Positions 7,528 to 40,271 of a stretch of DNA of 64,000 nucleotides are shown piece after piece. Source of the stretch: Winogradskyella tangerina (GTDB taxonomy: Bacteria; Bacteroidota; Bacteroidia; Flavobacteriales; Flavobacteriaceae); contig NZ_QERF01000003.1 in NCBI RefSeq assembly GCF_003260205.1, positions 124,001 through 188,000 of the forward strand, given 5' to 3'. How positions within the stretch are numbered: the stretch's first letter is position 1; each line of letters begins with the position of its first letter. The notes beneath the pieces were generated by a model that saw only the letters and a program-made list of their open reading frames with translations, ran no database searches and was not told the DNA's origin. The position numbers were made by a program, and so were the translations under genes.

Positions 7528-7663
7528 CGTTGGTTCAATTTAGTTTATAGATAACTGAACTATTGGGGTTTTAGTGTGCTAAGTGGTAAAAATAAGCATC
7601 TTTTTGAATTTTCGATATTATTAAACTGTTTTTCGAGGAATTGCGTGCTATTGACAAATAAAA

Positions 7664-7694
7664 AAGCCCATGATTACTAATTAATCATGGGCTT
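7664..7694 (-). terminator. Intrinsic terminator of the ABC transporter operon
   Basis: Perfect 13-bp stem (AAGCCCATGATTA/TAATCATGGGCTT) with a 5-nt loop. On the minus strand it is followed by a run of T (complement of AAAA at 7661-7664 and beyond). It lies 22 nt after the stop codon of the ABC ATPase gene. Confidence 0.85.
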
Positions 7695-7716
7695 CAATTA
7701 AAATTGATTGGCTGAT

Positions 7717-24381: not shown

Positions 24382-25233
24382 TTAGTTTCTCGACCATTCT
24401 TTTTCAAATGACATGATCTCATTTTCAGTATAAAAGAACTTTACAAATTTAGAGTTTAGCATTTTATCAATATAGCCTTTCTCCAACTTTATATTCTGTT
24501 TAAATTCTTTATACTCGCTGTAGTAATTTTTTTGAGCACCAACATTCTTGTTCTTTAATTCAAATTGTTTTAAGCCTAAAAACTCTTTTATGATTTTTTC
24601 TTTTGCTTGATCCTCCAAGTCGACTCGTAATAGAAGAATGTTATAGTTATTCGATTTTAGGATTTGATATTTTTTTTCTTTCGGAAAAGCAGTTTCGTAA
24701 ATATCGGTATTTAAGCTCTGATTAAACTCTTTATCAAACCACAACAAAGGTGTTTCGTGATCGTAAATATTATAAAATAAATCAATTAATTCTTCGGTAT
24801 TAGAATAGTTGACTAATCTGGTGTAATGTTCTTTATTTTGAAAGAAGGCAGAAATGTTTCTTTCTATTGGGTTTCTTACCATAGAGATCACATAAACTGG
24901 GCGTTTATTTGATTTAATAAACATATTGAATAACCTTATGCCTCTTTTGTCGACGACCTTAGATTCTACCTCTCCTGTTTTTTTATAGATGGATTCATGA
25001 ACCTCTTGAATATATTTTTTGTTGAGGCGGTGAACGTGATAAACAATTAAATTCTTTTCCTTTAGGCTGTAATAAATCGAAGAAGAAGCGACCTTTCCCA
25101 TTTGATAAATTAGGACCAGGTCTTTTTTCAAAATATTATATTTAAGATAATTAAGAATATCTTGAAGAAAAAAACCTACTGCCCTTAGCCACGAGTTTCT
25201 TAATTTGTCTTTTAGTTTCTTGTTCATTTTCAT
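24382..25233 (-). CDS. Putative sulfotransferase (capsular polysaccharide type)
   Basis: 283-residue protein with sulfotransferase features: a 5'-phosphosulfate-binding loop-like QMGKVASSSIYYSL (residues 44-57) after a hydrophobic strand, and a 3'-phosphate-binding-like VRNPIERNISAF (119-130) with R120 and S128. Families with this pattern are annotated as sulfotransferases or putative capsule synthesis proteins. The donor would be PAPS, and cysN, cysD, cysC and cysQ lie in the same locus. The first helical part (about 12-35) may sit on the membrane. The acceptor sugar is unknown, and overall similarity to characterised enzymes is low. Confidence 0.68.
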   Translation of the reverse strand: MKMNKKLKDKLRNSWLRAVGFFLQDILNYLKYNILKKDLVLIYQMGKVASSSIYYSLKEKNLIVYHVHRLNKKYIQEVHESIYKKTGEVESKVVDKRGIRLFNMFIKSNKRPVYVISMVRNPIERNISAFFQNKEHYTRLVNYSNTEELIDLFYNIYDHETPLLWFDKEFNQSLNTDIYETAFPKEKKYQILKSNNYNILLLRVDLEDQAKEKIIKEFLGLKQFELKNKNVGAQKNYYSEYKEFKQNIKLEKGYIDKMLNSKFVKFFYTENEIMSFEKEWSRN

Positions 25234-25352: not shown

Positions 25353-26126
25353 CTAAATAATTTGTCTATTTGCTATACGCTCATTTAGATTTCGCTTAAC
25401 AAAAACTTCTAGTTTTCCACCAACAGTATAATCTATAATTTCTATTCCCTTTTCATCAAAAGTTTGCTTTGCAATTTCATATTGTACTTCGCTGTGCTCT
25501 AGATTTGGCGTTCCCCAAATTTGATTTTTAAAATAGTCTTTAGAGAAATGATTCATATCCTCACCTTCAAATTTTTTGTAAGTCTGATTTTTACCTTCAA
25601 ATTTATAGCTGTGATCGATACCTACAATTGAAACTTTTTGTGGATTCAAATAATTAGCGATTTGAAGACAAGGGTAAGACACGGTTACACCATTAGCAAT
25701 TGTCTTTTTTATATCATCAGAAAAATCATCCTTGCTATGAAAATTTAATACAAATACATTTTTCCGCTTTTTAATGCCCAGATATATCGCACGAGGTGGG
25801 ACAAACAAAATGGTGTCCGTGGTATTAAAGAACTCTTTGTTTTGCCATAAAACACTGCCATTAACACAAACTATTATATCTGGCCTCCAGGCTGTTTTAT
25901 CGTAAATTAAGTTAATCTTATTCATCCCAATACTAATGTGGTCGGAAAAGGCTTCAAAATCTGTTTGGTTAAGACTTGGCCCATTACCAACAATAAGCAC
26001 TGGTTTATTTAACATATTATCTAATAAACTCCACTGATTGCGCTTTTTAAGAAAAGAAAAAATTACTTTATCAACAATATCCCTAATCGGTTTACTCTTC
26101 TTTACAAGTTTATCAAACAACTTCAT
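25353..26126 (-). CDS. GT42/DUF115-like putative glycosyltransferase
   Basis: 257-residue protein with a Rossmann-like start KPVLIVGNGPSLN (residues 41-53) and later NGVTVSYPCLQIANYL and VSIVGIDHSYKFEG. This pattern occurs in GT42 sialyltransferases (CstII type) and DUF115/Maf proteins, both linked to CMP-activated nonulosonic acids. The locus also encodes a CMP-sugar synthetase, so transfer of a CMP-activated acidic sugar is my preferred function. It overlaps the upstream wzy-like gene by 4 nt. The main alternative is an uncharacterised DUF115 phosphotransfer enzyme. Confidence 0.6.
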   Translation of the reverse strand: MKLFDKLVKKSKPIRDIVDKVIFSFLKKRNQWSLLDNMLNKPVLIVGNGPSLNQTDFEAFSDHISIGMNKINLIYDKTAWRPDIIVCVNGSVLWQNKEFFNTTDTILFVPPRAIYLGIKKRKNVFVLNFHSKDDFSDDIKKTIANGVTVSYPCLQIANYLNPQKVSIVGIDHSYKFEGKNQTYKKFEGEDMNHFSKDYFKNQIWGTPNLEHSEVQYEIAKQTFDEKGIEIIDYTVGGKLEVFVKRNLNERIANRQII

Positions 26127-27265
26127 TCTTTAACTTTATATATTATTACTAATAAGGGAATAAATATTAGTGTCGGGGTAAAAGTATAATAACTAGGTAC
26201 CGATTCCAAACAACCAAATAAAAAAAAGGTGACAAAAATAATCATCAAATTATTGTCTTTGTGTTTTAGCAAGACGGTCATTGTTTTATACAAAAAGAAG
26301 ATCAATATGGTTAATCCAAAAATCCCATAATCATAGAGCACCTGAAGAAACACATTGTGGGTTGTGCTTAGGGATTTTTCATACTGAGAGATCATTTCTT
26401 TAAACGAATTTAAACCGTGGCCAAATAAAAACCGAAAATCTTCAAATGAACTCGTAATTGCTAACTCCCATATTTTAGGTCGCTTAAAGAAGTTTTCTTC
26501 AAGCTCGCCTGGCCTTTTAAAACCAATAAAAATATCTGTATTATAAAAAATGTAAACAGCAAAAATTGCAGATACCGCAATTATTGCCCAGTAACGCGTA
26601 ATGAAATAGACAATGGTTTTAATCCCCATTCCGACCACAAAGCCTAACAATATCGAAATGATCAGTGGTGATCTAGAATCTAGAACCACTAGAAGATATA
26701 GATTCCAAACATATAGTATGGTTAAAAAATACTTAAGCTGAAGTTTATTTGTATTCTTAATTAAATACAAGGTCAGCAATGATGTAATACCTATCTGTAC
26801 GGAATTCACAGTAAGACCACTAGCCATAGGAAAGTTAACTCTATAGGCTACGATATTAAAAAGCCCTAGCGTTGTATTGATCCCTGTTCTTAAATGTGAA
26901 TATTCTATCTCATACCAAATGAAATTGATCAAATTATACACCGTAAGGCTGTAAACCAGATATTTAATGGCATCAAATTTTGATAAATTCTTAAACTTGT
27001 TTTTAACAAAGAAATACCACAATAAATAAGAGAAAAGTATACCTACAATTTGCAAAGTTACCTGTGAAAAAATAAGAGTATGTGCCAGCATAAATACAAG
27101 CACAAGAATGGGCAACACGTCTTCTTTTTTTAGTCTAATCTTCCAGTTGTTAAACCATAAAATATGAGTAATTAGGACTAGAAACAATATAGAAGTTGCT
27201 ATGATCTTACTGCTATCTTCGAGATAGGATATCAGTCTTAAAAAGAAAACATAGAAAATATCCAT
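26123..27265 (-). CDS. O-antigen polymerase/ligase-like membrane protein (Wzy family)
   Basis: 380-residue multi-pass protein with about ten helices and the Wzy/WaaL-type periplasmic motif TTHNVFLQVLYDYGIFGLTIL followed by a final helix group. ATG 27265 is chosen because it overlaps the wzx stop as TAATG and begins right before the first helix; the frame also extends upstream to 27352. It may polymerise repeat units or ligate the chain to lipid A core. A second Wzy-like gene lies two genes upstream, so the roles may be split. Confidence 0.82.
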   Translation of the reverse strand: MDIFYVFFLRLISYLEDSSKIIATSILFLVLITHILWFNNWKIRLKKEDVLPILVLVFMLAHTLIFSQVTLQIVGILFSYLLWYFFVKNKFKNLSKFDAIKYLVYSLTVYNLINFIWYEIEYSHLRTGINTTLGLFNIVAYRVNFPMASGLTVNSVQIGITSLLTLYLIKNTNKLQLKYFLTILYVWNLYLLVVLDSRSPLIISILLGFVVGMGIKTIVYFITRYWAIIAVSAIFAVYIFYNTDIFIGFKRPGELEENFFKRPKIWELAITSSFEDFRFLFGHGLNSFKEMISQYEKSLSTTHNVFLQVLYDYGIFGLTILIFFLYKTMTVLLKHKDNNLMIIFVTFFLFGCLESVPSYYTFTPTLIFIPLLVIIYKVKE

Positions 27266-28518
27266 TACTTTTTGAGATGAATTAAACTGGTAATAGACAC
27301 GAGTAACGGAATAATTACTAAAATTGAGATTATTGAAAAGAACCAAATCCAATAATTTTCTACTATCAATCCAGAAAGCACTACAGCGATTAAAATGAAA
27401 TAGCCCAGAATAATGAAGTTTTTAAAGTTCCTTATTTCCTTATTCATATAAAAGAAGTAAAAAATTGGATTTATAATAAAATACAATAATACTAATATAA
27501 TCATACAAATGAATTGGGTTTCTAGATAGGCAAAATCTGGCGCAATCAAAAGCAATATTTTTTCTGAAAAGACAATTAGAATAAGTCCAAGTAAAAACAC
27601 AAAATACAGGATAGGAATGGTTAATTTTTTATAAACTTTTAAAAAGGTCTTTCTGTTTAAAACCATATCCTTATGCAATACTATTTCATTTTGAAATGCT
27701 CCAATAATAGAATTGGAAATCAGCATAAATACATTTATAAAGATGATGAGTAGATGCGTCTCTGCCACCATTTTATCACCGTAATAGAAGTCGCCAAATT
27801 GTCTTGATAGATAAAGTACAAATACTGTAATTCCCTTTAATAACGTAAACTTATTAAGAAACCAAAACCTTGAAATACTAAAATTAAATTTTTTGAAAGA
27901 GAAGAAGTTAACGTTAAGGTGTTTTCTAAAATGAATCAGCGCATAAATAATAGTGAGCAACCCGCAGATACTTACAGCTAACGCTAAAGAAAAAATAGGG
28001 TCATTGAAGAATCGCATAAATGCAACACTCAAGAAAATAAACCCAAATGTAAAGAACACATCTTCAATAATTATTGATGCTTTAATTGTATTATTTACTC
28101 TCGAAAAATCCGCAAATAACCGAATTGCAGAGAACGCAAAAGCCACAACATTTACGGCAATAACAATCCCAATTTCATCGAAAATAAAAAAGCTTATAAC
28201 TAGCAATAATAAATGAGAAACAAAAAGATGCGAGATAATCCTATCAATAACATCTTTATTCTCATTGGTTCTAAGATGAATATCTCTCACTTCAGAGAAG
28301 TAGGTAATATGCATGCTATCAACACCAAAGAATGATAAAAATCTTGCTGTTGTATAAAAAATGGAAAAGCTGGCTACATCAGAAACAGAAAAAGTATTTA
28401 TTATATACAAATTGAAGAGAAAAAAGCACCCTTTTGCCAAAGCTTTCATTGACAAATTCTTTATCCCTTTATTGTTATAAAGTGATTTTGTTAACTTTTT
28501 AACTCTACTAATCTTCAT
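27265..28518 (-). CDS. wzx: Polysaccharide flippase-like protein (Wzx family)
   Basis: 417-residue integral membrane protein with about 12 predicted helices in the pattern of MATE-like polysaccharide exporters. The N-terminus (GIKNLSMKALAKGCFFLFNLYIINTFSVSDVASFSIFY contains the typical first helix pair) fits Wzx. It would move undecaprenyl-linked repeat units to the periplasm. It lies between two Wzy-like genes with overlapping stops and starts, which supports the call. Sequence conservation in this family is low, so the assignment rests on topology and context. Confidence 0.8.
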   Translation of the reverse strand: MKISRVKKLTKSLYNNKGIKNLSMKALAKGCFFLFNLYIINTFSVSDVASFSIFYTTARFLSFFGVDSMHITYFSEVRDIHLRTNENKDVIDRIISHLFVSHLLLLVISFFIFDEIGIVIAVNVVAFAFSAIRLFADFSRVNNTIKASIIIEDVFFTFGFIFLSVAFMRFFNDPIFSLALAVSICGLLTIIYALIHFRKHLNVNFFSFKKFNFSISRFWFLNKFTLLKGITVFVLYLSRQFGDFYYGDKMVAETHLLIIFINVFMLISNSIIGAFQNEIVLHKDMVLNRKTFLKVYKKLTIPILYFVFLLGLILIVFSEKILLLIAPDFAYLETQFICMIILVLLYFIINPIFYFFYMNKEIRNFKNFIILGYFILIAVVLSGLIVENYWIWFFSIISILVIIPLLVSITSLIHLKK

Positions 28519-30278
28519 TCCTTCCGTTTAAATATCAATAAAACAGACACCACAATAATAATGGAAATTCCCATTTGTCTAAATTGTATGTTTTCAAAAA
28601 ATGAGTTCACTATAATAGCTACCACATATAAGGTGAGTACCTTATCTGCAGCATTTACGCCTAAGAATACAAACCATCCATATAATAAAATTATAGATAG
28701 AAGACCGATAATTCCGCCTATGTAATACTCTTGTAAAAAAAAATTATGTGCATTAATTCTGGAACCCAAAAGATTTCTTTCATTTTTTGACAACCCTCTT
28801 GCGTACGATGTTTGGTCCGAACCTACTTCTAATTGTGGAGATTTTAAATCAAAAAAATTATTCTCATCACAATGATTGTACTTATAATCCGCACTTACAA
28901 ACCCAATTAAGGCAATATTTCTGGATTTTGTAGCTTTAGTAGTAATGGATAGTCTGTAGTAATCATCGTTTTCCTTTATAAGTTCATGATTTATTATGCC
29001 TTGGCCAATATGTGGAAAGGTATTGGAATTGACATCAAAAACCACCATCTGAGAATTAATCTCACCTAATCTAATGACCACATTGGCCTTATTTGGTTTT
29101 ACGCTTACCGAAAACGCGTATGTTTCATCAATTTTAAGGTCGTCTAGTATTTGAAAAACGGTGTGAGATTTACAACCGTTATTCTTTGAAAAAACGCGAA
29201 ATGAATTGTCCTTGTTGCTTTCTATAGAGGCTCCATTTTTCTTCCATATTAAGCTCTCTAATTGATCGGTATTGATGAGAAGGTTTTTCGCAAAGTCAAC
29301 CCCGTCGTTTGAGGTAATACTTTCTTCCACTATCTGGGTGACCGTTTTTTTACCTCCACAGTAACCATATCCAAGTAATGGCACCTCGTCGATCTTATTT
29401 AATAGTGCTGAATAAATTATCTTTCTCGGATTGTATTGGTTGGCTTTGTGTTCTTCTTCATTGCCTTTTAGATTATCCATAACGAATACAACATCTTCCG
29501 TTATATCTATATTTTTATATTTAAAACTATTATACAATACCAACGAAGTAATACCTATAACTACGACTGCCATTAAGCTCGAAAGTAAAATTTTCTTTTT
29601 CTTGTAAAGGGTGAAAATAAGGTATAATAGGTAGGCAAAAACAATAGCTATATTAGGTAAGGAAATTGGAAAAATTACAGCTATCAGAAAAAAGAGTGTG
29701 AGAAAAATGTTAAGTGTATTGAATTTTTCGTCAATCAATTTCTTGGTCGTAAAAAACAAAGCCAATAATATAATCAACGAAAAGTACGGTTTATGATAGT
29801 TGGAGTCTAATACGTCTATAGTTGGTTTCAAAAAATTCATTATATCCGAATAGAACAAGAACTGCTTTTGGGATACCACCTCCAATTGACCACTATAGAC
29901 TTCTTTTATAACGATGTAAGCAAACCTTAAAACATATAAGACGGCTCCAACTATATAAACGTTTTTAAAGGTGTTTGCTTCTTTTTTGGTTATATAAGAG
30001 GGTGCAAACAATAATAAAACAGAAGGAATATATAATGGTGCTACCTTTTCTAGCCAATAAGTAATCGAACACTCAAAACTACTCTGAAACAGAGGTATGA
30101 GTGTAAGAAGAAATATCAGAATTACAAAGTAAGCTTTCTTTGGGTTAGTTTTTGAAAAGGTCTTAAGATCAAACGGAAGTGATACAAAAAACAGAATCGT
30201 AATGATATTTATTATTGCAAAGTCTAATATGGGGAATAAGGCCAATGCATAAAATAAATATCTATTAAGTCGTCTCAT
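28515..30278 (-). CDS. Wzy/ligase-like membrane protein with embedded lectin-like domain
   Basis: 587-residue protein. About seven helices (residues 10-250) are followed by the polymerase/ligase motif LLGYGYCGG (301-309) and, much later, AHNFFLQEYYIGGIIGL (510-526), then more helices. Between these two motifs sits an extra domain of about 165 residues (329-493). It begins NLLINTDQLESLIWKKNG and ends FFDLKSPQLEVGSDQTSY, the pattern of jelly-roll carbohydrate-binding modules in phage tail fibres. Standard Wzy proteins are about 400-450 residues, so this is an insertion in the main periplasmic loop. Function is probably repeat-unit polymerisation or ligation, with glycan binding added. Confidence 0.8.
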   Translation of the reverse strand: MRRLNRYLFYALALFPILDFAIINIITILFFVSLPFDLKTFSKTNPKKAYFVILIFLLTLIPLFQSSFECSITYWLEKVAPLYIPSVLLLFAPSYITKKEANTFKNVYIVGAVLYVLRFAYIVIKEVYSGQLEVVSQKQFLFYSDIMNFLKPTIDVLDSNYHKPYFSLIILLALFFTTKKLIDEKFNTLNIFLTLFFLIAVIFPISLPNIAIVFAYLLYLIFTLYKKKKILLSSLMAVVVIGITSLVLYNSFKYKNIDITEDVVFVMDNLKGNEEEHKANQYNPRKIIYSALLNKIDEVPLLGYGYCGGKKTVTQIVEESITSNDGVDFAKNLLINTDQLESLIWKKNGASIESNKDNSFRVFSKNNGCKSHTVFQILDDLKIDETYAFSVSVKPNKANVVIRLGEINSQMVVFDVNSNTFPHIGQGIINHELIKENDDYYRLSITTKATKSRNIALIGFVSADYKYNHCDENNFFDLKSPQLEVGSDQTSYARGLSKNERNLLGSRINAHNFFLQEYYIGGIIGLLSIILLYGWFVFLGVNAADKVLTLYVVAIIVNSFFENIQFRQMGISIIIVVSVLLIFKRKE

Positions 30279-30297: not shown

Positions 30298-31218
30298 TTA
30301 CAGAGATTTTAAAACATTCTTTATGGCACAAATTCCTTGTTTTTCAATATTCTCATAGGTTCTAGATGCAATATGCGGCGTAATTATGATTTTTTCATTT
30401 CCTAAAAAAGGGTGATTATCAATCATAGGCTCTTTTTCGAGCACATCGGCTAAATAATAACCTAGGTTATTCTCTTTTAAGGCCTTTATTATTTCAGCAT
30501 TATCGACGAGCTTGCCTCTAGAGGTGTTAACTAATATTTTACTGCTATTTGAACTTTGTTTGAGTAATTGATAGTTAACAATTCCTTCCGTATGTCTATT
30601 GAGTGGTAAATGTAATGAAATGATGTCTGATTTTTCAAAAAGTTCTTCAGCATCTGCACATATCTCATAATCTGGATTTACCTCATCCTTATAAAATAAA
30701 TCCAAAACATTAACTTTCATTCCTAATGCGGCACATTTTTCCGCTGTAGCTCTTCCAATATTACCAAATCCCCAGATACCTATACTCTTACCGTTTAACT
30801 CGTTGCCTACTAGCCTTTTCCATTGACCATCTTGTACTAAATTGTGTTGCGGAATCAGGTTTTTACTTGCAAGGAATAATAAGGCAACAACATGTTCTGC
30901 AACAGTATTAACGTTAATCCCTGGACAATTACAAACCGTAATATTTAGGTCTTTTGCAGCCTCGAGATCTACAGAATCTAGACCTACTCCATATTTAGAA
31001 AGCACCTTGAGACCTCTTTTCTTGTACTCGGTTAATACCTTCTCAGTGTACTCATCATCTCCACAAATAATAGCATCAAAATTGTGGTTAAGAGCTAGTA
31101 ATTGGTCCTCGGTTAGTGGTCCTCTTTCTTTCACAACATCCCAATTCTGATCTTTTAAAAAACTCTGATGGTTTCCACTAGAGTCCTGAAACGATGTGCT
31201 TGTGAGTAAAACTTTCAT
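30298..31218 (-). CDS. D-isomer-specific 2-hydroxyacid dehydrogenase (PGDH-like)
   Basis: 306-residue NAD-dependent enzyme. The NAD motif is GFGNIG (residues 150-155) and the catalytic triad is R234 (VNTSRG), E263 (DVLEKEP) and H282 (TPHIAS). It interconverts a 2-keto acid and its D-2-hydroxy acid, as in phosphoglycerate dehydrogenases, but lacks a C-terminal ACT domain. It is the last gene of the tightly packed block 30298-35661; its ATG overlaps the HAD gene stop (TAATG at 31218). It may make a hydroxy-acid building block or a sugar-acid intermediate; the substrate is unknown. Confidence 0.85.
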   Translation of the reverse strand: MKVLLTSTSFQDSSGNHQSFLKDQNWDVVKERGPLTEDQLLALNHNFDAIICGDDEYTEKVLTEYKKRGLKVLSKYGVGLDSVDLEAAKDLNITVCNCPGINVNTVAEHVVALLFLASKNLIPQHNLVQDGQWKRLVGNELNGKSIGIWGFGNIGRATAEKCAALGMKVNVLDLFYKDEVNPDYEICADAEELFEKSDIISLHLPLNRHTEGIVNYQLLKQSSNSSKILVNTSRGKLVDNAEIIKALKENNLGYYLADVLEKEPMIDNHPFLGNEKIIITPHIASRTYENIEKQGICAIKNVLKSL

Positions 31219-31886
31219 TATAAATATTTTTGTATTTCTTTTTCTAGCTCAGTAAACGTCTTAAATCTAATCCCATTAAAATCTTTAAAAACTTCCATGT
31301 TTTCGTGATGCTCTCTTAAGGCAAAGTGTATATTAGAGAAATCAGCGGCATCATAATCTGTAGTAGCATCTCCAAGAAATAAGGTTTCATGGCGTTTCAA
31401 ATTGTTTTCCTTAATGATGTATTCTGTCCAGTATCTTTTGTTTTTTGGGGAGCCACAAAGAGCTTTAAAATGGTTTTCAATACCTCTTTTTTCAACAATT
31501 TGCTCTATTTCTACAGTGGGTGTTCCTGTAATGATCCAAAAATTAAGTCGTGTTGAGTATTTATCTAAAAAATTGCTACAGCCAACAACTTCTTCGGCAT
31601 TAATTACTTTTTCTAATACTAATTTTGAAAACGTCTGTGCTAGATCGTTCAATTGATCTTGAGAAATATCCTGATTTAAAAATTGTTTATGGTAAATCTT
31701 AAACTTTTCATATCTCGAAACACCGCCATTATGGATATGGTGGTCTACTACCTTATCGGCAATTTTTTCTCCATACGGAAGGTACATTTCTCTAAATGCC
31801 TCCGTCTTTACATCCACCGATTCGGCAATTACACCATCAAAGTCAAAAAAAATATTCTTAAAAATTGTACTGTCTTTTAAACTCAT
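31218..31886 (-). CDS. HAD family phosphatase
   Basis: 222-residue HAD hydrolase with motif I DFDGV (residues 15-19; nucleophile D15, acid D17), motif II ITGTP, and motif IV LGDATTDYDAA. A helical cap lies between. It is not of the small KdsC type. ATG 31886 (MSLKDSTIFK) is preferred; the frame opens upstream to 31913 inside the FkbM gene. In this block it could dephosphorylate a sugar-acid phosphate before CMP activation. The overlap with both neighbours implies one transcript. Confidence 0.82.
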   Translation of the reverse strand: MSLKDSTIFKNIFFDFDGVIAESVDVKTEAFREMYLPYGEKIADKVVDHHIHNGGVSRYEKFKIYHKQFLNQDISQDQLNDLAQTFSKLVLEKVINAEEVVGCSNFLDKYSTRLNFWIITGTPTVEIEQIVEKRGIENHFKALCGSPKNKRYWTEYIIKENNLKRHETLFLGDATTDYDAADFSNIHFALREHHENMEVFKDFNGIRFKTFTELEKEIQKYL

Positions 31887-32631
31887 CAAAATCCGTTTTA
31901 GTAGCAAAGGCAATTATATTTCCCCAATCATCAGTTTCAATCTCTTCAATATCTGTAGATAGTTTTTTCCAATCGTGCTGTATGCCATATTCTTTAATGG
32001 GGTGCCATATCGAGTATACTAAAAAATAGCCTTGTTCTATTAAGAAATTACCCATGTCTTTAACTGTATAGTCTAAAAGCACTGTTTTTTTGTCTTCGAA
32101 TTCGCACATGATTACTCGCGGTTTAAATTTGGAAAAATCAAACCCTTCAAGCACCATTAAGTCGTACCCTTCAACATCAATTTTTAAAAAGTCAATAGCA
32201 CTAATATTATTATCTATTACAAAGTCCTTCAGTGTAATAGTATCTACCTCATAAGAAGGAACTTGACTATTATTAAACTTTAACAGGCTGGGAATTCCTT
32301 TTGAAGAAGTACTCGTATAAAACGTTTTGGTTTCTTTAATATTTGAAACTGCATTCTTATGCAGACTAGCTTTTAAATTCCATTTTTTTAGGTATTTGGA
32401 AATTCCTTGGTAATTGTTCTCGTCTGGTTCAAAGGCAAAAACTTTCCAATTTTTTAATAAAAATGGCATAAATGAAAATCCATTTAAGGAACCAACATCA
32501 AACATTACGCCATCTTTATAATCGAGAAAGTCATTTATTAGTAAGATTTCATCAAAATGCTTTTTCAGCTTTTGCCTAAAGAAAAAAAACATTCTCGGTG
32601 GCAAAACTTCTTTTATTAACTTCTTCATCAT
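31858..32631 (-). CDS. FkbM family methyltransferase
   Basis: 257-residue SAM-dependent O-methyltransferase. The SAM motif is FDVGSLNGFSF (residues 44-54), the acidic strand end is AFEPDE (66-71), and the FkbM signature is LKIDVEGYDLMVLEGF (149-164). It probably methylates a sugar of the surface glycan. The gene starts one base after the lactonase stop. A second in-frame ATG directly follows the first. The target hydroxyl is unknown. Confidence 0.85.
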   Translation of the reverse strand: MMKKLIKEVLPPRMFFFFRQKLKKHFDEILLINDFLDYKDGVMFDVGSLNGFSFMPFLLKNWKVFAFEPDENNYQGISKYLKKWNLKASLHKNAVSNIKETKTFYTSTSSKGIPSLLKFNNSQVPSYEVDTITLKDFVIDNNISAIDFLKIDVEGYDLMVLEGFDFSKFKPRVIMCEFEDKKTVLLDYTVKDMGNFLIEQGYFLVYSIWHPIKEYGIQHDWKKLSTDIEEIETDDWGNIIAFATKTDFDEFKRQYNF

Positions 32632-32632
32632 A

Positions 32633-33307
32633 TTAATTTAAGATGAGGTCAATTTGCGGAATTATTTTTGAAATTGGGTAATTATTATTAAAAATATTAT
32701 CTAAGACTTTTTTCTTCTCTTGTCCGGGAGCGATTAAAACGATTTTCTTTGCATTTAATAACAATGGATAGGTCATAGTTATGCGCTCTGTTTTTAGCTG
32801 CGGAACATGGTTTAAAACAACTAAATCGCTCATGTTGAGTAAGGCTTTCGTATCCGGGAAAAGGGATGCCGTATGCCCATCTAGACCCATACCAAGAATA
32901 ACAAGATCTAATTGAGGCATACCATTGGCAAACGAAATATTGGTCTTAATGATTTCTTCATATTTTGAAGCACATTCGTGATAATTTAAATTTTCTACGA
33001 CCATCGAAAAACTCTTGGATGCAACTTTATCAAACAAAAGCTTTCTGATATTGCCATAATTACTTTCAGAATGATTAACGCTTACGCAACGTTCGTCAAC
33101 AGAGAAGAATTTGATTTTATCCCAGTTTATATCTAGAGTACTTAGCTTTTTATAAATCGGAAGCGGCGAATTTCCGCCAGAGAGTGCAACAGATATTTCA
33201 CCTTTTTCTAAAATAAGATCTGCTATAAGGTCTTTTATAAGGTCTGATGATTTATCTACAAAATCCTTGTCATCAAGGGTGATAATTTTTATCGAATCAT
33301 TCTTCAT
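32633..33307 (-). CDS. pgl: 6-phosphogluconolactonase family protein
   Basis: 224-residue protein with the motifs of 6-phosphogluconolactonase (SOL/DevB type): SGGNSPLPIYKKL, WDKIKFFSVDERCV and LDLVILGMGLDGHTASLFP. The canonical function is hydrolysis of 6-phosphogluconolactone in the pentose phosphate pathway. Here there is no zwf or gnd nearby, and the gene overlaps the SDR by 11 nt inside a glycan block. It may therefore act on a different sugar-lactone phosphate, or as a sugar-phosphate isomerase/deaminase relative. Family membership is firm, the substrate is not. Confidence 0.82.
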   Translation of the reverse strand: MKNDSIKIITLDDKDFVDKSSDLIKDLIADLILEKGEISVALSGGNSPLPIYKKLSTLDINWDKIKFFSVDERCVSVNHSESNYGNIRKLLFDKVASKSFSMVVENLNYHECASKYEEIIKTNISFANGMPQLDLVILGMGLDGHTASLFPDTKALLNMSDLVVLNHVPQLKTERITMTYPLLLNAKKIVLIAPGQEKKKVLDNIFNNNYPISKIIPQIDLILN

Positions 33308-34178
33308 TACTGTGAACAGATCTTATGCATTCAAGCAGTCCTTGCCCCATATCTATGTGAGGGTTGGCTATGAGTTTTTTACTGACTGATGGCTCAAATG
33401 AATAAGGCGTGAATTTATAATGATTTGTATATCCACTATTATTATAAACGATATCGACCTTATCATTCATTATCTCATTTATCATATTGAAAAGGTCAGA
33501 ACGCTTCATGCGCTCAGTTCCTGTTAATATAACATGGAGATTGTTGAATTCATCAGATTCTATGACATCAACAGATAGCTTGGCGGCATCTGAGGCATGA
33601 ATATATTCACGTAACTCCTCGCCAGATCCTGAGTGTTCTATTTTTTTGTTTAAAACTGCCTCTTTAACCAAATTATACACGTAATTGTTGTCGTATGGTC
33701 TTTCTGAATAAACAGATCCATACCTTAAAATTACGAAAGGAAGGTTGTATCTTTTGTGGTACTCCTCGATAATTTTTTCTGAAGCAAGTTTACTTATACC
33801 GTAATAGGATCCTTTATTACTCATGGCGTAAGCACTACTGGCATATACGAAATTTGCAACGCCTTTTTTTATGCACTCTTCGAGGATGTACATGTTGCCC
33901 ATTACATTAAGCTCTATGGTCTTAATAGGAAACTTAATGGCATTATCTAAATTAGCAAAGCCTGCTAAATTATATACAACATCAAAATCTGATTGGCTAA
34001 ATACATTGGTCACATCCTCTTTACTTAGAATGTCGCATTTAATAAAATCTGCATAACCTTCAAATTCATTGTTCTCGGAAATATCTGCAACCGTTACTTT
34101 ATAATTCCTCTTCAACAATTCTTCAACTAAGTAATGGCCCAAAAAACCATGACCTCCAAAGACTAAAACCTGCTTCAT
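33297..34178 (-). CDS. NAD-dependent epimerase/dehydratase (extended SDR)
   Basis: 293-residue extended SDR. The cofactor motif is GGHGFLG (residues 8-14), and the catalytic Tyr and Lys are Y126 and K130 (YYGISK) with preceding SSAY. Such enzymes epimerise, dehydrate or oxidise nucleotide-linked sugars. Its stop overlaps the lactonase start by 11 nt, and its start overlaps the aldolase by 4 nt. It is shorter than RmlB or GalE, closer to UDP-sugar epimerases of O-antigen loci. The substrate is unknown. Confidence 0.85.
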   Translation of the reverse strand: MKQVLVFGGHGFLGHYLVEELLKRNYKVTVADISENNEFEGYADFIKCDILSKEDVTNVFSQSDFDVVYNLAGFANLDNAIKFPIKTIELNVMGNMYILEECIKKGVANFVYASSAYAMSNKGSYYGISKLASEKIIEEYHKRYNLPFVILRYGSVYSERPYDNNYVYNLVKEAVLNKKIEHSGSGEELREYIHASDAAKLSVDVIESDEFNNLHVILTGTERMKRSDLFNMINEIMNDKVDIVYNNSGYTNHYKFTPYSFEPSVSKKLIANPHIDMGQGLLECIRSVHSNEE

Positions 34179-34972
34179 TTTTTTTGGCTTAATTTACTTT
34201 TTAATGATTTCATTTCATCTCTTGCCTTATCGCCAAGAAAGAAAAAGTCCAAGCTAAATGCCAAAAAAGAGTATCCCTTATCTACTTTTTCTATGATCTT
34301 AGCATGATTTGAGTCGATAACGTGGAAGCCAAGTGGTTTGTTTTTTTCTAAGGTAATTTTATCTATTCTGTTCAAAACCTCTTTAACGTCATCATCATCA
34401 AACATTCCTGGTTTACTCATCGATGCTGAAAGATCGTATGGACCAACAATTATTCCGTCTACACCTTCCACATCGAGTATTTCTCTTAGATTATTTACCG
34501 CATCAATATGCTCAACCTGAACAATAACTATAGACTCTTCTTGGACCCACTGCTTGTAAGACTCAAAACTAACGCCATAATGCTGCGCTCTAGATAGTCC
34601 AACACCTCTTTTTCCAATTGGCGGGTACTTTACATAGGATACAGCCTCCCGAGCCTCTTCGGCGTTTTTTACCATGGGTACAATAATGCCGTTTGCACCG
34701 GCATCCATAACTCTTTTGATGATGACCTCATCATTTTTACTTACACGCACCAAAGCCTCCATATGGTTACCTTGGATATGGCCAATTAAATTCTGAACTG
34801 TCTCTATATTAATGGCTGAATGTTCAATATCTATGGTCAACCACTCAAATCCTGATGTACCTAAGATTTCAACAACTCCTTGATGCGGAATAGTTAGCCA
34901 AGAGCCTATACTGAGTTCATTATTGCGAAGCTTAGACTTTAATGGACTTTTATTGTGTTCAAAATTTTTCAT
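34175..34972 (-). CDS. HpcH/HpaI family class II aldolase
   Basis: 265-residue metal-dependent pyruvate aldolase. Key residues by family comparison are H51 (DIEH), R76 (LVRV), the metal ligands E154 (VQVEH) and D180 (VGPYDLSAS), and the RAQHY loop at 128-132. The family cleaves or forms 2-keto-3-deoxy acids from pyruvate and an aldehyde. Its 3' and 5' ends overlap the SDR and cytidylyltransferase genes by 4 nt each, so it is part of the same pathway. Making a 3-deoxy-ulosonic acid is the most attractive role; catabolic cleavage is the alternative. Confidence 0.85.
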   Translation of the reverse strand: MKNFEHNKSPLKSKLRNNELSIGSWLTIPHQGVVEILGTSGFEWLTIDIEHSAINIETVQNLIGHIQGNHMEALVRVSKNDEVIIKRVMDAGANGIIVPMVKNAEEAREAVSYVKYPPIGKRGVGLSRAQHYGVSFESYKQWVQEESIVIVQVEHIDAVNNLREILDVEGVDGIIVGPYDLSASMSKPGMFDDDDVKEVLNRIDKITLEKNKPLGFHVIDSNHAKIIEKVDKGYSFLAFSLDFFFLGDKARDEMKSLKSKLSQKK

Positions 34973-35661
34973 TCAGTGGACTCCTTTCTTAATGTTTTAT
35001 ACAATGTTTCGGCGATTAAAAAATCTTGTGGGTCATCAATATCTATGGCTTCTAATTTGTCTATTTCGAACATTTTTGGCTTCTTTCCAATACGTTTTAG
35101 ACCACTTTCCATAAAAGATTCTTTAGTAAAAATAAAGAAATTGGAGTTTTCTTCAAATAAAGGTGGTAAGTCTTGTGTTCTTATGAGTTTTTGGGGATTA
35201 TGGTTAAACGCTTTTCCATTTTCGTCATAGAGCCTAGTTTGAATCTTTGTAACCGAAAATATAGAATCGTAGTTGTCTTTAAAGTCTGGCTCTAAAAATA
35301 GGGCTATTGCATTGTCTATTGAAGCTGTGGTAAGTAAAGGATTTGTACTGTGGGTCTGAAGGTAGATATCAGATTCAAATCTTAATACATCATTTTCAAT
35401 GACTTTATTCATTGACACTAAATCCCCTTGTATTTCAATGGGCCTATCGTGGATAACTATTTTATCGCCATAGGATTCTAAGGCGTCTTTTTTAATCTTT
35501 TCACTATCCGTATTTATAACTACTGCTGAAATGTATTTAGAATCTAAAAGAGTGTCTAAAACTCTGTGATAAAGAGGTTTACCGCTGAAATCTTTTAAAT
35601 TTTTATTCGGAACTCTTTCCGAGTTGCCTTTCATGGGTAGAAGTGCCGTGACTTTGATCAT
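34969..35661 (-). CDS. Acylneuraminate cytidylyltransferase-like CMP-sugar synthetase
   Basis: 230-residue nucleotidyltransferase of the NeuA/KdsB group. The N-terminal CTP loop is LLPMKGNSERVPNKNL (residues 7-22) followed by FSGKPLYHRVL; the C-terminal EIDKLEAIDIDDPQDF fits NeuA-type metal sites. Such enzymes activate ulosonic acids with CTP to CMP-sugars. No NeuB, NeuC, PseI or KdsA gene is in the window. The 4-nt overlap with the HpaI aldolase suggests that the aldolase product is its substrate. KDO activation is an alternative, but the sequence is closer to NeuA than to KdsB. Confidence 0.82.
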   Translation of the reverse strand: MIKVTALLPMKGNSERVPNKNLKDFSGKPLYHRVLDTLLDSKYISAVVINTDSEKIKKDALESYGDKIVIHDRPIEIQGDLVSMNKVIENDVLRFESDIYLQTHSTNPLLTTASIDNAIALFLEPDFKDNYDSIFSVTKIQTRLYDENGKAFNHNPQKLIRTQDLPPLFEENSNFFIFTKESFMESGLKRIGKKPKMFEIDKLEAIDIDDPQDFLIAETLYKTLRKESTE

Positions 35662-36226: not shown

Positions 36227-37483
36227 TTAGACGATCATTCCAGCGGCTACAGTTTCGTTTGTGGTGTCGTCAATTAAAATGATGCTTCCCGTTGTTCGAT
36301 TTTCTCTGTATTCGTCAATCATTAAAGGCTTAGTTGTTCTAATTTTTACTTTAGAAATGTCATTCATGTGAAGCGTTTTATCTTCCTTGTTACGCTCTAA
36401 AGTCTCTATATCGATCTTATAAACAATTTCCTTAATCATTGCCTTTTGATCATTACTTGTATGCCTTATACTATACTTAGTTCTTGGGCGCGATGGACTA
36501 TTATTTAGCCAACATAGCATCACCTCAATATCTTGTGTTGCTTTTGGCTTATTGTTAGATCTTACAATCATATCGCCTCTACTGATGTCTATATCATCTT
36601 CGAGTGTAATTGAAACAGACATTGGAGCAAAAGCTTCCTTCAGCTCTCCTGAATAATTATCGATAGATTTAATTTTGCTGGTAAATCCAGAAGGCATTAC
36701 TGTAATTTCATCCCCAGGTCTAAATATACCACCTTCAACACGTCCGGCATAGCCTCTGTAGTCTCTATTTTCATCGTCACTTTGAGGCCTAATTACCGTT
36801 TGAACCGGAAATCTTGCATCTACTTTATTGATATCACTACTAATATGCATGGTCTCGAGCGTATGAAGCAACGGTGCACCTTGATACCAATCCATATTTT
36901 CTGATCGATTAACAACGTTATCTCCCAATAATGCACTAATAGGAATAAATCGAACATCCTTTACCAGCATTTTAGAGGAGAACTCTTCAAACTGATTAAT
37001 AACATTATTATACGCATCTTCAGAGAAATCTACCAGATCCATTTTATTAACGCAAACAATAACATGTGGAATTTGAAGAAGCGATGCAATAAAAGAATGG
37101 CGCTTTGTTTGTTCTATTACACCATGTCTTGCATCTACTAAGATAATGGCAGCATTGGCTGTTGAAGCTCCGGTTACCATATTTCTAGTATACTGAATAT
37201 GACCAGGTGTGTCGGCAATGATGAATTTACGCTTAGGTGTTGTAAAATACCTGTAGGCCACATCTATGGTTATACCTTGCTCTCTCTCATCTCGTAATCC
37301 GTCAGTAAAGAGTGCTAAATCAACGCCTTCATGACCTTTCTTTTTACTAGTGTTTTCAATGGCTTCAAGCTGATCTTCAAAAATAGATTTTGAGTCGTAT
37401 AACAAACGCCCAATTAATGTACTTTTTCCGTCATCAACACTTCCTGCTGTTGTAAATCGTAATAATTGATTATTATCTATCAT
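36227..37483 (-). CDS. cysN: Sulfate adenylyltransferase subunit 1 (GTPase)
   Basis: 418-residue GTPase subunit of ATP sulfurylase, which drives APS formation from ATP and sulfate. GTP motifs are GSVDDGKST (residues 14-22), DTPGH (91-95) and NKMD (146-149). Two beta-barrel domains follow. The length is that of CysN alone, so it is not the CysNC fusion; APS kinase is a separate gene here. It follows cysD by 14 nt. Confidence 0.95.
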   Translation of the reverse strand: MIDNNQLLRFTTAGSVDDGKSTLIGRLLYDSKSIFEDQLEAIENTSKKKGHEGVDLALFTDGLRDEREQGITIDVAYRYFTTPKRKFIIADTPGHIQYTRNMVTGASTANAAIILVDARHGVIEQTKRHSFIASLLQIPHVIVCVNKMDLVDFSEDAYNNVINQFEEFSSKMLVKDVRFIPISALLGDNVVNRSENMDWYQGAPLLHTLETMHISSDINKVDARFPVQTVIRPQSDDENRDYRGYAGRVEGGIFRPGDEITVMPSGFTSKIKSIDNYSGELKEAFAPMSVSITLEDDIDISRGDMIVRSNNKPKATQDIEVMLCWLNNSPSRPRTKYSIRHTSNDQKAMIKEIVYKIDIETLERNKEDKTLHMNDISKVKIRTTKPLMIDEYRENRTTGSIILIDDTTNETVAAGMIV

Positions 37484-37497
37484 TATGGTTAATTTCT

Positions 37498-38403
37498 TTA
37501 AAAATATCCTTGTCTTTTTCTATCTTCCATAGCTGATTCAGAGCGTTTATCATCGCTTCTGTTTCCGCGTTCTGTTTGTCGCATCCCTGAAACTTCATTT
37601 GCAATTTTTTCAAGCGTGTCTGCGTCAGATTCTATGCCTCCTGTGATGGTAATATCACCAAGGGTTCTAAAACGTACTTTTTTAGTAACAATCTCTTCGT
37701 GTTCCTCTAATATCAAGAATTCTGAATTTGGTATCCAGCTGTTCTGTCTCCAAACAACTTCTCTTTCGTGAGCAAAATAAAGAGAAGGAATAGCGATATT
37801 TTCGCGTTGAATGTAATTCCACACGTCCATTTCTGTCCAGTTACTAATTGGGAAAGCTCTAAAATGCTCTCCTTCAAAGTGTTTACCATTAAAGATATTC
37901 CACAGTTCCGGTCTTTGATTTTTAGGGTCCCATTGTCCGAAGTCATCCCTGTGCGAAAAGAAGCGTTCTTTTGCTCTGGCTTTTTCCTCGTCACGTCTAC
38001 CACCACCAATAGCACAATCTATCTTATTAGTTTCTATGGCATCGAGCAGTGTTGTAATTTGAAGAGCATTACGTGTGGCATTTTTCCCTTTTTCTTCCGC
38101 AACTCTACCCTGATCTATAGATTCTTGAACAGAACCTACGATAAGTTGTACACCAAGCTCTTTAATTATATCATCTCTAAATTTGATGGTTTCAGGAAAA
38201 TTATGTCCTGTATCTACGTGCATTAAAGGAAATGGAATCTTAGCGGGGGCGAAAGCTTTTTTAGCTAAATGCGTTACCAAAATTGAGTCTTTTCCACCAG
38301 AAAATAAGATTACTGGATTATCAAACTGCGCCCATACTTCGCGTAAAACAAATATGGCTTCGCTTTCTAACTCGTCTAGATAATTTAAATAATATTTACT
38401 CAT
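37498..38403 (-). CDS. cysD: Sulfate adenylyltransferase subunit 2
   Basis: 301-residue catalytic subunit of ATP sulfurylase, a PP-loop enzyme with SGGKDS at residues 35-40 and the family stretch HVDTGHNFPETIKFRD. It ends with the typical DRKRQGYF tail. It partners the CysN GTPase. Its ATG overlaps the cysC stop by 8 nt. In this locus the product APS feeds the adjacent APS kinase. Confidence 0.96.
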   Translation of the reverse strand: MSKYYLNYLDELESEAIFVLREVWAQFDNPVILFSGGKDSILVTHLAKKAFAPAKIPFPLMHVDTGHNFPETIKFRDDIIKELGVQLIVGSVQESIDQGRVAEEKGKNATRNALQITTLLDAIETNKIDCAIGGGRRDEEKARAKERFFSHRDDFGQWDPKNQRPELWNIFNGKHFEGEHFRAFPISNWTEMDVWNYIQRENIAIPSLYFAHEREVVWRQNSWIPNSEFLILEEHEEIVTKKVRFRTLGDITITGGIESDADTLEKIANEVSGMRQTERGNRSDDKRSESAMEDRKRQGYF

Positions 38404-38998
38404 AATTGAGTTTTAGTTTTGGTTTTATATAGTCAATAATTCTAGCAACAGCATCTTCAACAGATTCTGTTTCGGTCTTTATTTCAATGTTAGGGTTTTC
38501 GGGTGCTTCGTAAGGCGCAGAGATCCCTGTCATGTTCTTTATTTCACCTGCTCTTGCCTTTTTATACAAACCCTTTACATCCCTGCGTTCACATTCTTCT
38601 ATACTCGTATTTACATAGATCTCAACAAAGTTAAAATCTTTAACGATAGTTCTTATATTATCCCTGTCTTTTTTATAGGGCGAAACAAATGCTGCTAAAA
38701 CCACCAAGCCAGCATCAATCATTAGGTTAGAGACTTCTGCAATTCGTCTTATATTCTCCGTTCTGTCTTGGGGAGAAAATGAAAGATCATTGTTAATTCC
38801 CTTTCGGATATTATCACCATCTAATGAATAAGTTTTAATGCCAAGCTTAAACAATTCCTGTTCTACTACATTGGCAATCGTAGACTTACCAGAACCAGAT
38901 AAACCCGTAAACCATAATAGAAATGAATTGTGATTATTGGCCGTTATTCTGTCTTTTTTTGAAACCTGATAACTATGGGGTATAACATGTTTTGCCAT
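38396..38998 (-). CDS. cysC: Adenylylsulfate kinase
   Basis: 200-residue APS kinase that makes PAPS from APS and ATP. Walker A is GLSGSGKST (residues 32-40); DGDNIRKGIN and FVSPYKKDRDNIR are typical APS-binding parts. ATG 38998 is chosen because it follows the upstream stop by one base; a start at 39016 would overlap that gene. A separate APS kinase beside cysDN and cysQ, without a PAPS reductase, points to PAPS as sulfo-donor for sulfotransfer. Confidence 0.95.
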   Translation of the reverse strand: MAKHVIPHSYQVSKKDRITANNHNSFLLWFTGLSGSGKSTIANVVEQELFKLGIKTYSLDGDNIRKGINNDLSFSPQDRTENIRRIAEVSNLMIDAGLVVLAAFVSPYKKDRDNIRTIVKDFNFVEIYVNTSIEECERRDVKGLYKKARAGEIKNMTGISAPYEAPENPNIEIKTETESVEDAVARIIDYIKPKLKLNYE

Positions 38999-38999
38999 A

Positions 39000-39455
39000 T
39001 TAGTTTTTTTTACCAATGAAAAATTGCCTTACTTTTCCAAGTGGAAGTTTTAGCCATAATCTCTCGTGTAAATAATACAGCACAAATTTCGTAAATAATT
39101 CTGTTAGAGCAATAAACATCGCTATCTCGTCAAAAGTTTCGAGGATCGTACCTGAAATTAGAAAAGTCATGGTCGTTGCGATTATTCTCCAAGATATAGT
39201 TTTATGAAGTGTCTGTTTTTTATTTACTTCCTTGTTTTGTAAAATATTCTGCCATACACGTTCGTGCAGATAATAAACAAAGAATTTTATGAAGAATTCT
39301 AGAGCGCCAATTTTAATGGCATTTTCGAGGCTACATTGACCGTTGAGACAGGTAACTAGTAGTACAACGACAATTGTGTCTGTAGTAGCAACAATGCGCC
39401 AAGATACTCCCTTAAGGATACTCCTAATATGTGATTCTTTTTTATAAGTAGGCAT
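39000..39455 (-). CDS. Tandem DUF2061 membrane protein
   Basis: 151-residue protein made of two DUF2061 units of about 60 residues each. The first contains SWRIVATTDTIVVVLLV and FFVYYLHERVW, the second SWRIIATTMTFLISGTI and FVLYYLHERLW. Each unit has two hydrophobic helices. DUF2061 genes are often beside cysC and cysDN, and this one lies between cysC and cysQ. A role in sulfate or PAPS-related transport is only suggested by context. Confidence 0.85.
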   Translation of the reverse strand: MPTYKKESHIRSILKGVSWRIVATTDTIVVVLLVTCLNGQCSLENAIKIGALEFFIKFFVYYLHERVWQNILQNKEVNKKQTLHKTISWRIIATTMTFLISGTILETFDEIAMFIALTELFTKFVLYYLHERLWLKLPLGKVRQFFIGKKN

Positions 39456-39467
39456 GGGGTTTAAATT

Positions 39468-40271
39468 CTAAGAAACTACGAACCAGGGATTCAGTAGGTT
39501 CTCTTTGTTATAAGTGAGTGGTTTTTCGGTTTCTTTTGAGATCACCTCAACTCCTACTGCATTGCAAATGGCTTGACCCGCAGCAGTATCCCACTCCATT
39601 GTTGGCGCAAATCTTGGGTAAATATCAGCATTCCCTTCTGCGACCAGACAAAATTTTAGTGAGCTCCCTTTAGACACTATTGAAACCTGATTACCTTTCT
39701 TTTCAAGTTGGTGTACAAATGAGAGGGTTTCGTCGTTCATGTGCGATCTGCTTCCCACAACTTCTAAAGCATTGGTTCTTTGCTTTGGTTGAAGTGGCTG
39801 CAGTAAATTCAATATGTTTTCAAAGGTTGTATTGTGGTCTGAAAGCTGTGCCTTGTAAGCTTTACCATTTGGCACGTCTCCAATATATAATACTTTAATT
39901 GCCGGAACATATATAACACCTAATCTTGGCTTTCCTTCATTGACTAAAGCTATATTTACGGTAAACTCACCATTTCTTTTTATAAACTCTTTTGTACCAT
40001 CAACAGGGTCTACAATCCAACAGGTACTCCATTCCTTGCGGCTTATGTAATCGATCTGCTTATTCTCTTCGCTAATAATCGGAATGTTTGTAGGAATCAA
40101 AAAGGTATTAATGATGTCATTCGCATTTTTATCAGCAATTGTTAAAGGGGATTTATCGTCTTTGATTTCTACATCAAATTCGGAATTATAAACCTCCATA
40201 ATGGCTTCGCCTGCTTTTAATGAGGCTTCTATAGCTGTGCGTAGTTCTCTATTTTGATCTATACCAGTCAT
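39468..40271 (-). CDS. cysQ: 3'(2'),5'-bisphosphate nucleotidase
   Basis: 267-residue inositol-monophosphatase-fold enzyme that hydrolyses PAP, the by-product of PAPS-dependent sulfotransfer, to AMP. The metal site is IVDPVDGTKEF (residues 86-96), with SEEN near 67-70 and EWDTAAGQAI near the C-terminus. It lies in the cys block, which supports the PAP assignment over inositol phosphatase. Its first bases overlap the end of fcl by 23 nt. Confidence 0.92.
   Translation of the reverse strand: MTGIDQNRELRTAIEASLKAGEAIMEVYNSEFDVEIKDDKSPLTIADKNANDIINTFLIPTNIPIISEENKQIDYISRKEWSTCWIVDPVDGTKEFIKRNGEFTVNIALVNEGKPRLGVIYVPAIKVLYIGDVPNGKAYKAQLSDHNTTFENILNLLQPLQPKQRTNALEVVGSRSHMNDETLSFVHQLEKKGNQVSIVSKGSSLKFCLVAEGNADIYPRFAPTMEWDTAAGQAICNAVGVEVISKETEKPLTYNKENLLNPWFVVS

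Follow-up and report, generated by a model that had tools for sequence, protein, structure and literature searches.

To our knowledge, every characterised route to a cytidine monophosphate (CMP)-activated ulosonic acid, whether 3-deoxy-D-manno-oct-2-ulosonic acid (Kdo), N-acetylneuraminic acid (Neu5Ac), 2-keto-3-deoxynononic acid (Kdn), pseudaminic acid (Pse) or legionaminic acid (Leg), uses a phosphoenolpyruvate (PEP)-dependent synthase. We analysed a 64,000-nucleotide stretch of the Winogradskyella tangerina genome (the window), in which seven genes, running on the minus strand from 35661 down to 30298, include a NeuA-like cytidylyltransferase next to an HpcH/HpaI aldolase. We propose, with a probability of about two in three, that these genes form a patchily distributed module whose product is a CMP-activated 2-ulosonic acid destined for a surface glycan, built by an aldolase and without a PEP-dependent synthase.

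The sialic, pseudaminic and legionaminic acid systems (NeuB-NeuA type) share with the module a NeuA-family cytidylyltransferase (PF02348) in a surface-glycan locus that also carries an MptE-like gene. Unlike them, the module has no NeuB but does have the aldolase, a short-chain dehydrogenase/reductase (SDR), a lactonase and a 2-hydroxyacid dehydrogenase, and its NeuA belongs to a separate clade. The Kdo pathway (KdsA-KdsC-KdsB) likewise includes a phosphatase, and some module loci carry a KdsB-like cytidylyltransferase; the module, however, lacks KdsA, its haloacid dehalogenase (HAD)-type phosphatase matches HAD_2, and its KdsB-like proteins form a clade apart from the others compared. The HpaI, GarL and 2-keto-3-deoxy-L-rhamnonate aldolases belong to the same family as the module aldolase and have the same catalytic residues, but the latter falls far below their equivalog cut-offs and has its own clade and residues. 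HpaI-type aldolases are metal-dependent. Finally, the E. coli Nan system (NanA lyase and YhcH/NanQ anomerase) resembles some relatives of the module in combining a 2-oxo-acid aldolase with a YhcH-family gene, but NanA is a degradative enzyme that uses a Schiff base (available text of PMC8141875), whereas in the module it is an HpaI-type aldolase that accompanies a cytidylyltransferase. The matches listed in the openly licensed literature included no CMP-ulosonate pathway that is HpaI-based or otherwise unusual.

A tightly packed gene cluster

Open reading frame (ORF) analysis of the window confirmed seven intact, closely spaced genes, given here in gene order:

34969-35661, minus strand: NeuA-like cytidylyltransferase (PF02348, CTP_transf_3; Pfam 102 bits), member of the module clade, predicted to activate a 2-ulosonate with CMP
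34175-34972, minus strand: HpcH/HpaI aldolase (PF03328; Pfam 112.9 bits), catalytic residues present, member of the module clade, predicted to form a C-C bond between a 2-oxo acid and an aldehyde
33297-34178, minus strand: extended SDR of the NAD-dependent epimerase/dehydratase family (Pfam Epimerase), core gene by Pfam match and conserved linkage
32633-33307, minus strand: 6-phosphogluconolactonase (PGL)-type lactonase (Pfam Glucosamine_iso/6PGL), passing TIGR01198 with 185.5 bits (cut-off 124.45)
31858-32631, minus strand: FkbM methyltransferase (PF05050, Methyltransf_21; Pfam match), accessory, non-core
31218-31886, minus strand: HAD phosphatase (PF13419, HAD_2; Pfam match), core gene, alternative TTG start at 31913
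30298-31218, minus strand: D-2-hydroxyacid dehydrogenase of the short phosphoglycerate-dehydrogenase type (PF02826/PF00389, 2-Hacid_dh; Pfam match), core gene

The successive junctions are -4, -4, -11, +1, -29 and -1 nt when the HAD gene is counted from its ATG; taking the upstream TTG as its start makes the HAD junction -56 nt. The first-pass annotation had thus placed the seven genes and their tight packing correctly, while understating the largest overlap (29 nt rather than 26), and its family calls agree with the Pfam assignments throughout (CTP_transf_3, HpcH_HpaI, Epimerase, Glucosamine_iso/6PGL, Methyltransf_21, HAD_2 and 2-Hacid_dh).

The NeuA-like protein misses the PseF cut-off (TIGR03584, 93.3 bits against 205.7), and the aldolase misses all of its equivalog cut-offs (HpaI, 180 bits against 369; GarL, 163 against 407; 2-keto-3-deoxy-L-rhamnonate aldolase, 159 against 441). 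Since neither passes any equivalog cut-off, homology does not give the exact substrates of these two predicted enzymes. The SDR carries motifs that we take to have their usual roles. The HAD phosphatase has weak matches to phosphoglycolate-phosphatase models in addition to HAD_2 and no match in the PDB at E 0.001, and the nearest solved chains to the dehydrogenase are phosphoglycerate dehydrogenases of the short type.

A conserved core with a patchy distribution

The aldolase found matches in 7 of 299 genomes of the same family (E 1e-40), and a seven-row aldolase profile in 16 of 395 genomes from the phylum and 21 of 395 from the class (E 1e-50), the source genome being included in each count. 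Carriers include Maribacter flavus, Maribacter sp. 4G9, Hufsiella ginkgonis and an uncultured Flavobacteriaceae bacterium, the module of Maribacter flavus KCTC 42508 being that of L016. Outside the phylum, a plasmid of Acuticoccus sp. (Alphaproteobacteria) carries the module, annotated there in the order aldolase, acylneuraminate cytidylyltransferase, phosphoglycerate dehydrogenase and HAD hydrolase, followed after a short gap by an NAD(P)-dependent oxidoreductase. Seventeen plasmid records matched the HAD gene, of which six were inspected besides that of Acuticoccus; three annotated Azospirillum stretches lacked the module, one record is the Leisingera locus described below, and two bore no annotation. 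No module genes surround a Haloterrigena plasmid aldolase. A DNA-level search of E. coli genomes with 3983 bases of the cluster gave no match.

We define the full core as cytidylyltransferase, HpaI aldolase, extended SDR, 2-hydroxyacid dehydrogenase and HAD phosphatase. It is present in 25 of 43 distinct aldolase neighbourhoods, counting matches within 6 kb at bit thresholds that we set ourselves (100 for NeuA, KdsB and the PF04199 cyclase-like hydrolase; 150 for the SDR and the dehydrogenase; 120 for HAD; 50 for PGL and NanQ). We excluded L015 and L021 from the 43, and also L019, which shares a contig with L009; the 43 include neighbourhoods close to a contig end (L055, L060, L062, L068, L073, L077, L079, L080 and L084) and are not independent, L072-L075 being from one genus. 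Of the 33 loci whose aldolase scores at least 235 bits, 32 have a cytidylyltransferase within 6 kb, against 2 of the 10 below that score. The gene set proposed from the window thus recurs across genomes, including one, G602, that has no NeuB or KdsA match.

The FkbM methyltransferase, which the first-pass annotation had listed among the seven genes, does not belong with this set: matches to the window protein occur only in the window and L071 among the 25 full-core loci. Other FkbM-family proteins occur in L058 and L057, and the gene is probably accessory to the module.

Exchange of cytidylyltransferase and lactonase types

Two of the positions in the module are filled by different families. 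The cytidylyltransferase of the 25 full-core loci is NeuA-like in 20 and KdsB-like in five, never both, and the KdsB-like protein of L012 scores above the kdsB cut-off. Trees were quick searches with support by SH-aLRT only. In the cytidylyltransferase tree, which has long branches, a starred branch (98) unites the 20 module NeuA proteins with two from related clusters and sets them apart from 12 other NeuA-like proteins, eight of the 12 within 4 kb of a NeuB match and four not. The five module KdsB-like proteins, with four from related clusters, are likewise separated (support 84) from eight housekeeping KdsB proteins, a name we give to the best-scoring PF02348 protein in each of eight genomes. 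The lactonase is of the PGL type in eight full-core loci and a PF04199 hydrolase in ten, again never both, with neither in seven. On the aldolase tree a minimum of two changes is needed for lactonase type and four for cytidylyltransferase type.

The NeuA and KdsB families both activate 2-ulosonates. A CMP-2-ulosonate is therefore the likely product of a module in which the two families replace one another, and we regard the occurrence of two cytidylyltransferase lineages in the same place as the best argument for such a product.

A YhcH/NanQ-family (PF04074-type) gene gives a profile match in six of the 25 full-core loci, and PF04074 was found in all four proteins checked; four relatives miss the NanQ equivalog (NF040884, cut-off 160) at 52.5-94.7 bits. 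The YhcH anomerase supplies the Neu5Ac aldolase with open-chain substrate (available text of PMC8141875).

A distinct clade of HpaI-type aldolases

As the first-pass annotation had read it, the window aldolase has H51, R76, E154 and D180 intact. These four residues are conserved in the alignment with two relatives of solved structure, and we take them to be catalytic; together with the PF03328 match they place the protein in the superfamily. In the aldolase tree, the 34 proteins with a cytidylyltransferase within 6 kb group with that of L059, where the NeuA gene is about 7.5 kb distant, opposite nine others (support 91, not starred). When 34 module aldolases (L059 included, L061 excluded) are compared with those nine, H217 occurs in 33 of the former and none of the latter, H155, which follows the catalytic Glu154, in 32 against two, Q130 in 30 against one, and Y179 in all 34 against three.

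More distant aldolases also turn up in viral collections, with seven matches in IMG/VR at 27-36% identity and two Staphylococcus entries among phage records at 34%. An HpaI-type aldolase lies at 231525-232106 of OR844989.1, a 283-kb record labelled Staphylococcus phage that may be host DNA.

Accounting for PEP-dependent synthases

Genome-wide searches located NeuB only on contig C12 and KdsA above its cut-off only on C15, in agreement with the earlier statement that no PEP-dependent synthase is present at the locus itself (the window is on C10). Three proteins of the genome belong to PF02348: a high-scoring one on C9, placed by the tree among the best-scoring ones from other genomes (the housekeeping KdsB set), one on C12 adjoining NeuB and NeuC, and that of the window. 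With one KdsA, one NeuB provided with its own NeuA, and three cytidylyltransferases, no PEP-dependent synthase would, by count and neighbourhood, be left over for the window NeuA. The C12 genes form a second nonulosonate locus (L015, C12:130000-149500) with NeuA, NeuB and NeuC, where an ORF reads like a sulfotransferase and several others like glycosyltransferases.

The same sum holds more widely. In 16 of 21 module genomes the number of cytidylyltransferases above cut-off equals that of NeuB (>100 bits) plus KdsA (above cut-off) plus one. G602 (98% complete) has a single cytidylyltransferase, that of the module. In G215 and G057 no NeuB match was found, and in G694 none exceeded 100 bits.

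A proposed pathway

On these grounds of conserved linkage, enzyme swaps, clades and genome accounting, a PEP-synthase-independent, aldolase-linked route to a CMP-2-ulosonate appears well supported, and the earlier suggestion that an HpaI aldolase feeds the cytidylyltransferase gains from the same linkage, swaps and accounting. The aldolase would condense a 2-oxo acid (pyruvate, hydroxypyruvate or a related compound) with an aldehyde, for which an aldose phosphate is the most likely candidate, to give an ulosonate phosphate from which the HAD phosphatase would strip the phosphate. In relatives that have one, the YhcH-family protein may open or close the sugar ring, as published for Neu5Ac, and the NeuA-like enzyme, or its KdsB-like counterpart in other loci, would then make the CMP-ulosonate. 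The SDR, lactonase and 2-hydroxyacid dehydrogenase could supply or edit an aldol partner or the ulosonate.

The MptE-like/DUF115 protein at 25353-26126 is a candidate for placing the residue into the glycan. Maf proteins presumably share the MptE-like domain. A Maf-type transferase uses ulosonic donors (available text of PMC11339370). A second candidate transferase family, lacking a Pfam assignment, occurs in two more loci.

Loci without an HpaI aldolase and related clusters

Most loci had been found via the aldolase, so we also searched with the SDR and the NeuA as anchors. The SDR matched in 16 of 395 genomes of the class (own included), of which 14 were also aldolase-positive; the contig of G807 ends within the HpaI gene of its module, and in G468 the SDR is accompanied by HAD, a further PF02348 protein and a weak match of Gfo/Idh type, with no HpaI in the stretch read.

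Several observations, from these searches and from elsewhere, weigh against the pathway proposed above. In the loci retrieved via the aldolase its presence holds by construction, and the dehydrogenase belongs to the core by definition. The NeuA anchor matched in 9 of 395 genomes of the phylum (own included), yet HpaI lies in the stretch read for only five of them (G000, G349, G602, G429 and G677). G418 and G486, which are not among the phylum aldolase matches (E 1e-50), show NeuA, the dehydrogenase and FabG with no aldolase in the stretch read, the G486 contig ending 1.6 kb downstream of the dehydrogenase, so that an aldolase could be out of view; in G333 NeuA is accompanied only by a dehydrogenase-like gene at a distance of 4 kb, and G220, the weakest NeuA match, has a PF00682 aldolase and HAD. 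The dehydrogenase is retained in loci without the aldolase, and a simple pyruvate route leaves it without a job. The accounting fails in five of the 21 genomes (G791, G1013, G349, G317 and G435), and holds in G932 only through compensation, that genome having a strong KdsB-like protein, no KdsA above cut-off and two NeuB; in the W. tangerina genome NeuB and its NeuA are paired by position, but KdsA and the KdsB-like C9 protein by count. HpaI enzymes are mostly known from catabolism, and the window's genome has no YhcH-family match. The transferase is probably the weakest part of the mechanism, because an MptE-like profile match lies within 6 kb in only five of the 25 full-core loci, the window's own being 8 kb off.

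Other loci show further combinations. In L155 (9859-11409) a PF00682 aldolase that carries an MptE-like domain below threshold (25.6 bits, cut-off 34.6) adjoins NeuA and HAD, and a Leisingera plasmid (L101, 6634-9636) carries three consecutive genes, for a PF00682 aldolase, a KdsB-like cytidylyltransferase and HAD; both aldolases are nearest to the 4-hydroxy-2-oxovalerate aldolase model, below its cut-off. We count both arrangements in favour of the aldolase-linked pathway. The L101 locus also contains an annotated sulfotransferase and glycosyltransferases. In L059 (12761-17265) and L063 (5204-8628), NeuA, HpaI and the dehydrogenase occur with a YhcH-family gene and a PF04199 hydrolase, alongside a Gfo/Idh oxidoreductase, an SIS isomerase, a FabG-like SDR and a putative sugar phosphate phospholyase related to AroB (TIGR04425 above cut-off in L059, by sequence likeness only in L063). 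We report these related clusters as a putative second module type.

Alternative explanations

The aldolase-free NeuA loci are evidence against a strict aldolase rule, and the expectation that the aldolase is the only ulosonate source for this NeuA clade finds no support in L153 and L154, where NeuA and the dehydrogenase stand with FabG and no aldolase is seen. Such loci would favour an oxidation route, in which the SDR oxidises an aldose (phosphate) to a lactone, the PGL or PF04199 hydrolase converts it to an aldonate, the dehydrogenase oxidises C2 to a keto group, HAD removes the phosphate and NeuA/KdsB activates the product, HpaI only editing the chain or the C3/C4 configuration by retro-aldol cleavage and re-addition. 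This scheme gives the SDR, lactonase and dehydrogenase each a job. It also draws on the PGL scoring above the 6-phosphogluconolactonase cut-off, on a metallo-beta-lactamase/GT2 fusion (L154, 3248-4912) that adjoins NeuA-dehydrogenase-FabG and resembles the ascorbate-6-phosphate lactonase model, far under its cut-off (61.7 bits against 306), and on an L058 2-hydroxyacid dehydrogenase (6182-7954) with a weak N-terminal CTP_transf_3-like domain (23.9 bits, cut-off 22.6). We nevertheless consider it unlikely, though a serious rival, given that HpaI accompanies the SDR in 15 of the 16 SDR-anchored genomes, so that this SDR form goes with the aldolase, that L155 and L101 have aldolase, HAD and cytidylyltransferase without such a dehydrogenase in the stretch read, that the best relatives of the dehydrogenase are phosphoglycerate dehydrogenases, and that seven full-core loci have neither lactonase. 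Within the aldolase-built pathway, the choice of donor bears on the same enzyme. Condensation of pyruvate with an aldose phosphate to a 3-deoxy-2-ulosonate phosphate, followed by HAD and NeuA, is the version given by the first-pass annotation and a special case that we find quite possible, if short of even odds: the HpaI, GarL and 2-keto-3-deoxy-L-rhamnonate aldolase models and, for the PF00682 triads of L155 and L101, the 4-hydroxy-2-oxovalerate aldolase model all match, if below cut-off, but pyruvate requires no dedicated dehydrogenase, and the alignment shows polar residues specific to the module clade (H217 and Q130). The persistence of the dehydrogenase in loci that lack the aldolase, and its closest likeness to phosphoglycerate dehydrogenases of the short type, suggest that the donor is a 2-oxo acid other than pyruvate. 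We put forward, as a speculative and somewhat improbable extension, that the dehydrogenase yields hydroxypyruvate or another 2-oxo-3-hydroxy acid, that the resulting CMP-2-ulosonates keep a 3-hydroxyl, and that the module belongs to a modular family in which cytidylyltransferases of two lineages, lactonases of two or three families and aldolases of two families have replaced one another.

We give very little credence to two further explanations. One NeuB and one KdsA do exist in the genome, as the first-pass annotation had allowed, and the window NeuA might serve either of them with the aldolase in another route; but NeuB has its own NeuA and NeuC adjoining, a stronger PF02348 protein of KdsB type on C9 is available for KdsA, and G602, G215, G057 and G694 keep the module in spite of their missing or weak synthase matches. 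Alternatively, the cytidylyltransferase could activate a non-sugar acid such as a phosphonate, for which nucleotidyl activation is described (available text of PMC6697681). No PEP mutase was noticed among the window ORFs read (no model search was aimed at it), and both the KdsB-like replacement in L012 and the YhcH family in relatives argue for an ulosonate.

Glycan genes around the module

Downstream of the module lie further candidate glycan genes:

28515-30278, minus strand: second Wzy_C polymerase/ligase-like membrane protein (PF04932), 32.4 bits, barely above the cut-off of 31.7
27265-28518, minus strand: Wzx-like membrane protein without a Pfam hit, 28% homologue in L009, presumably a flippase
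26123-27352, minus strand: Wzy_C polymerase/ligase-like membrane protein (PF04932), 44.8 bits (cut-off 31.7)
25353-26126, minus strand: MptE-like/DUF115 protein (PF01973), candidate ulosonyltransferase, 43.6 bits (cut-off 34.6)

A single glycan locus thus holds two Wzy_C (O-antigen ligase/polymerase) proteins (26123-27352 and 28515-30278). The MptE-like protein has a 54% identical homologue in L009. Predicted structures were of low confidence (mean pLDDT 33 for the MptE-like protein, 57 for the SDR). CysN, CysD, CysC and CysQ-like genes, by sequence reading, lie upstream of the module (36227-40271) and an NKWYS-family protein at 24382-25233; together these hint at a sulfated glycan.

Short ulosonic acids do occur in capsules, since 4-deoxy-2-hexulosonic acid is on record in that of E. 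coli K3 (cited in the available text of PMC10433991); we found no link between the K3 acid and the module. Klebsiella K38 was considered as a source of a known ulosonic acid and set aside, a review naming a different sugar there (available text of PMC6856556), and the available part of a Klebsiella capsule-locus paper contains nothing on a K38 ulosonic acid (PMC4616057).

Implications

The module is real and conserved, and is best read, from comparative evidence, as a variant form of CMP-ulosonate biosynthesis in which an aldolase replaces the PEP synthase. It would help annotators to distinguish its NeuA, KdsB-like, HpaI and PF04199 proteins from enzymes of the sialic-acid and Kdo pathways and of catabolism. 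If true, a recurring aldolase module would represent a second solution to CMP-ulosonic acid synthesis, and would predict unknown acidic sugars in the surface glycans of the organisms that carry it.

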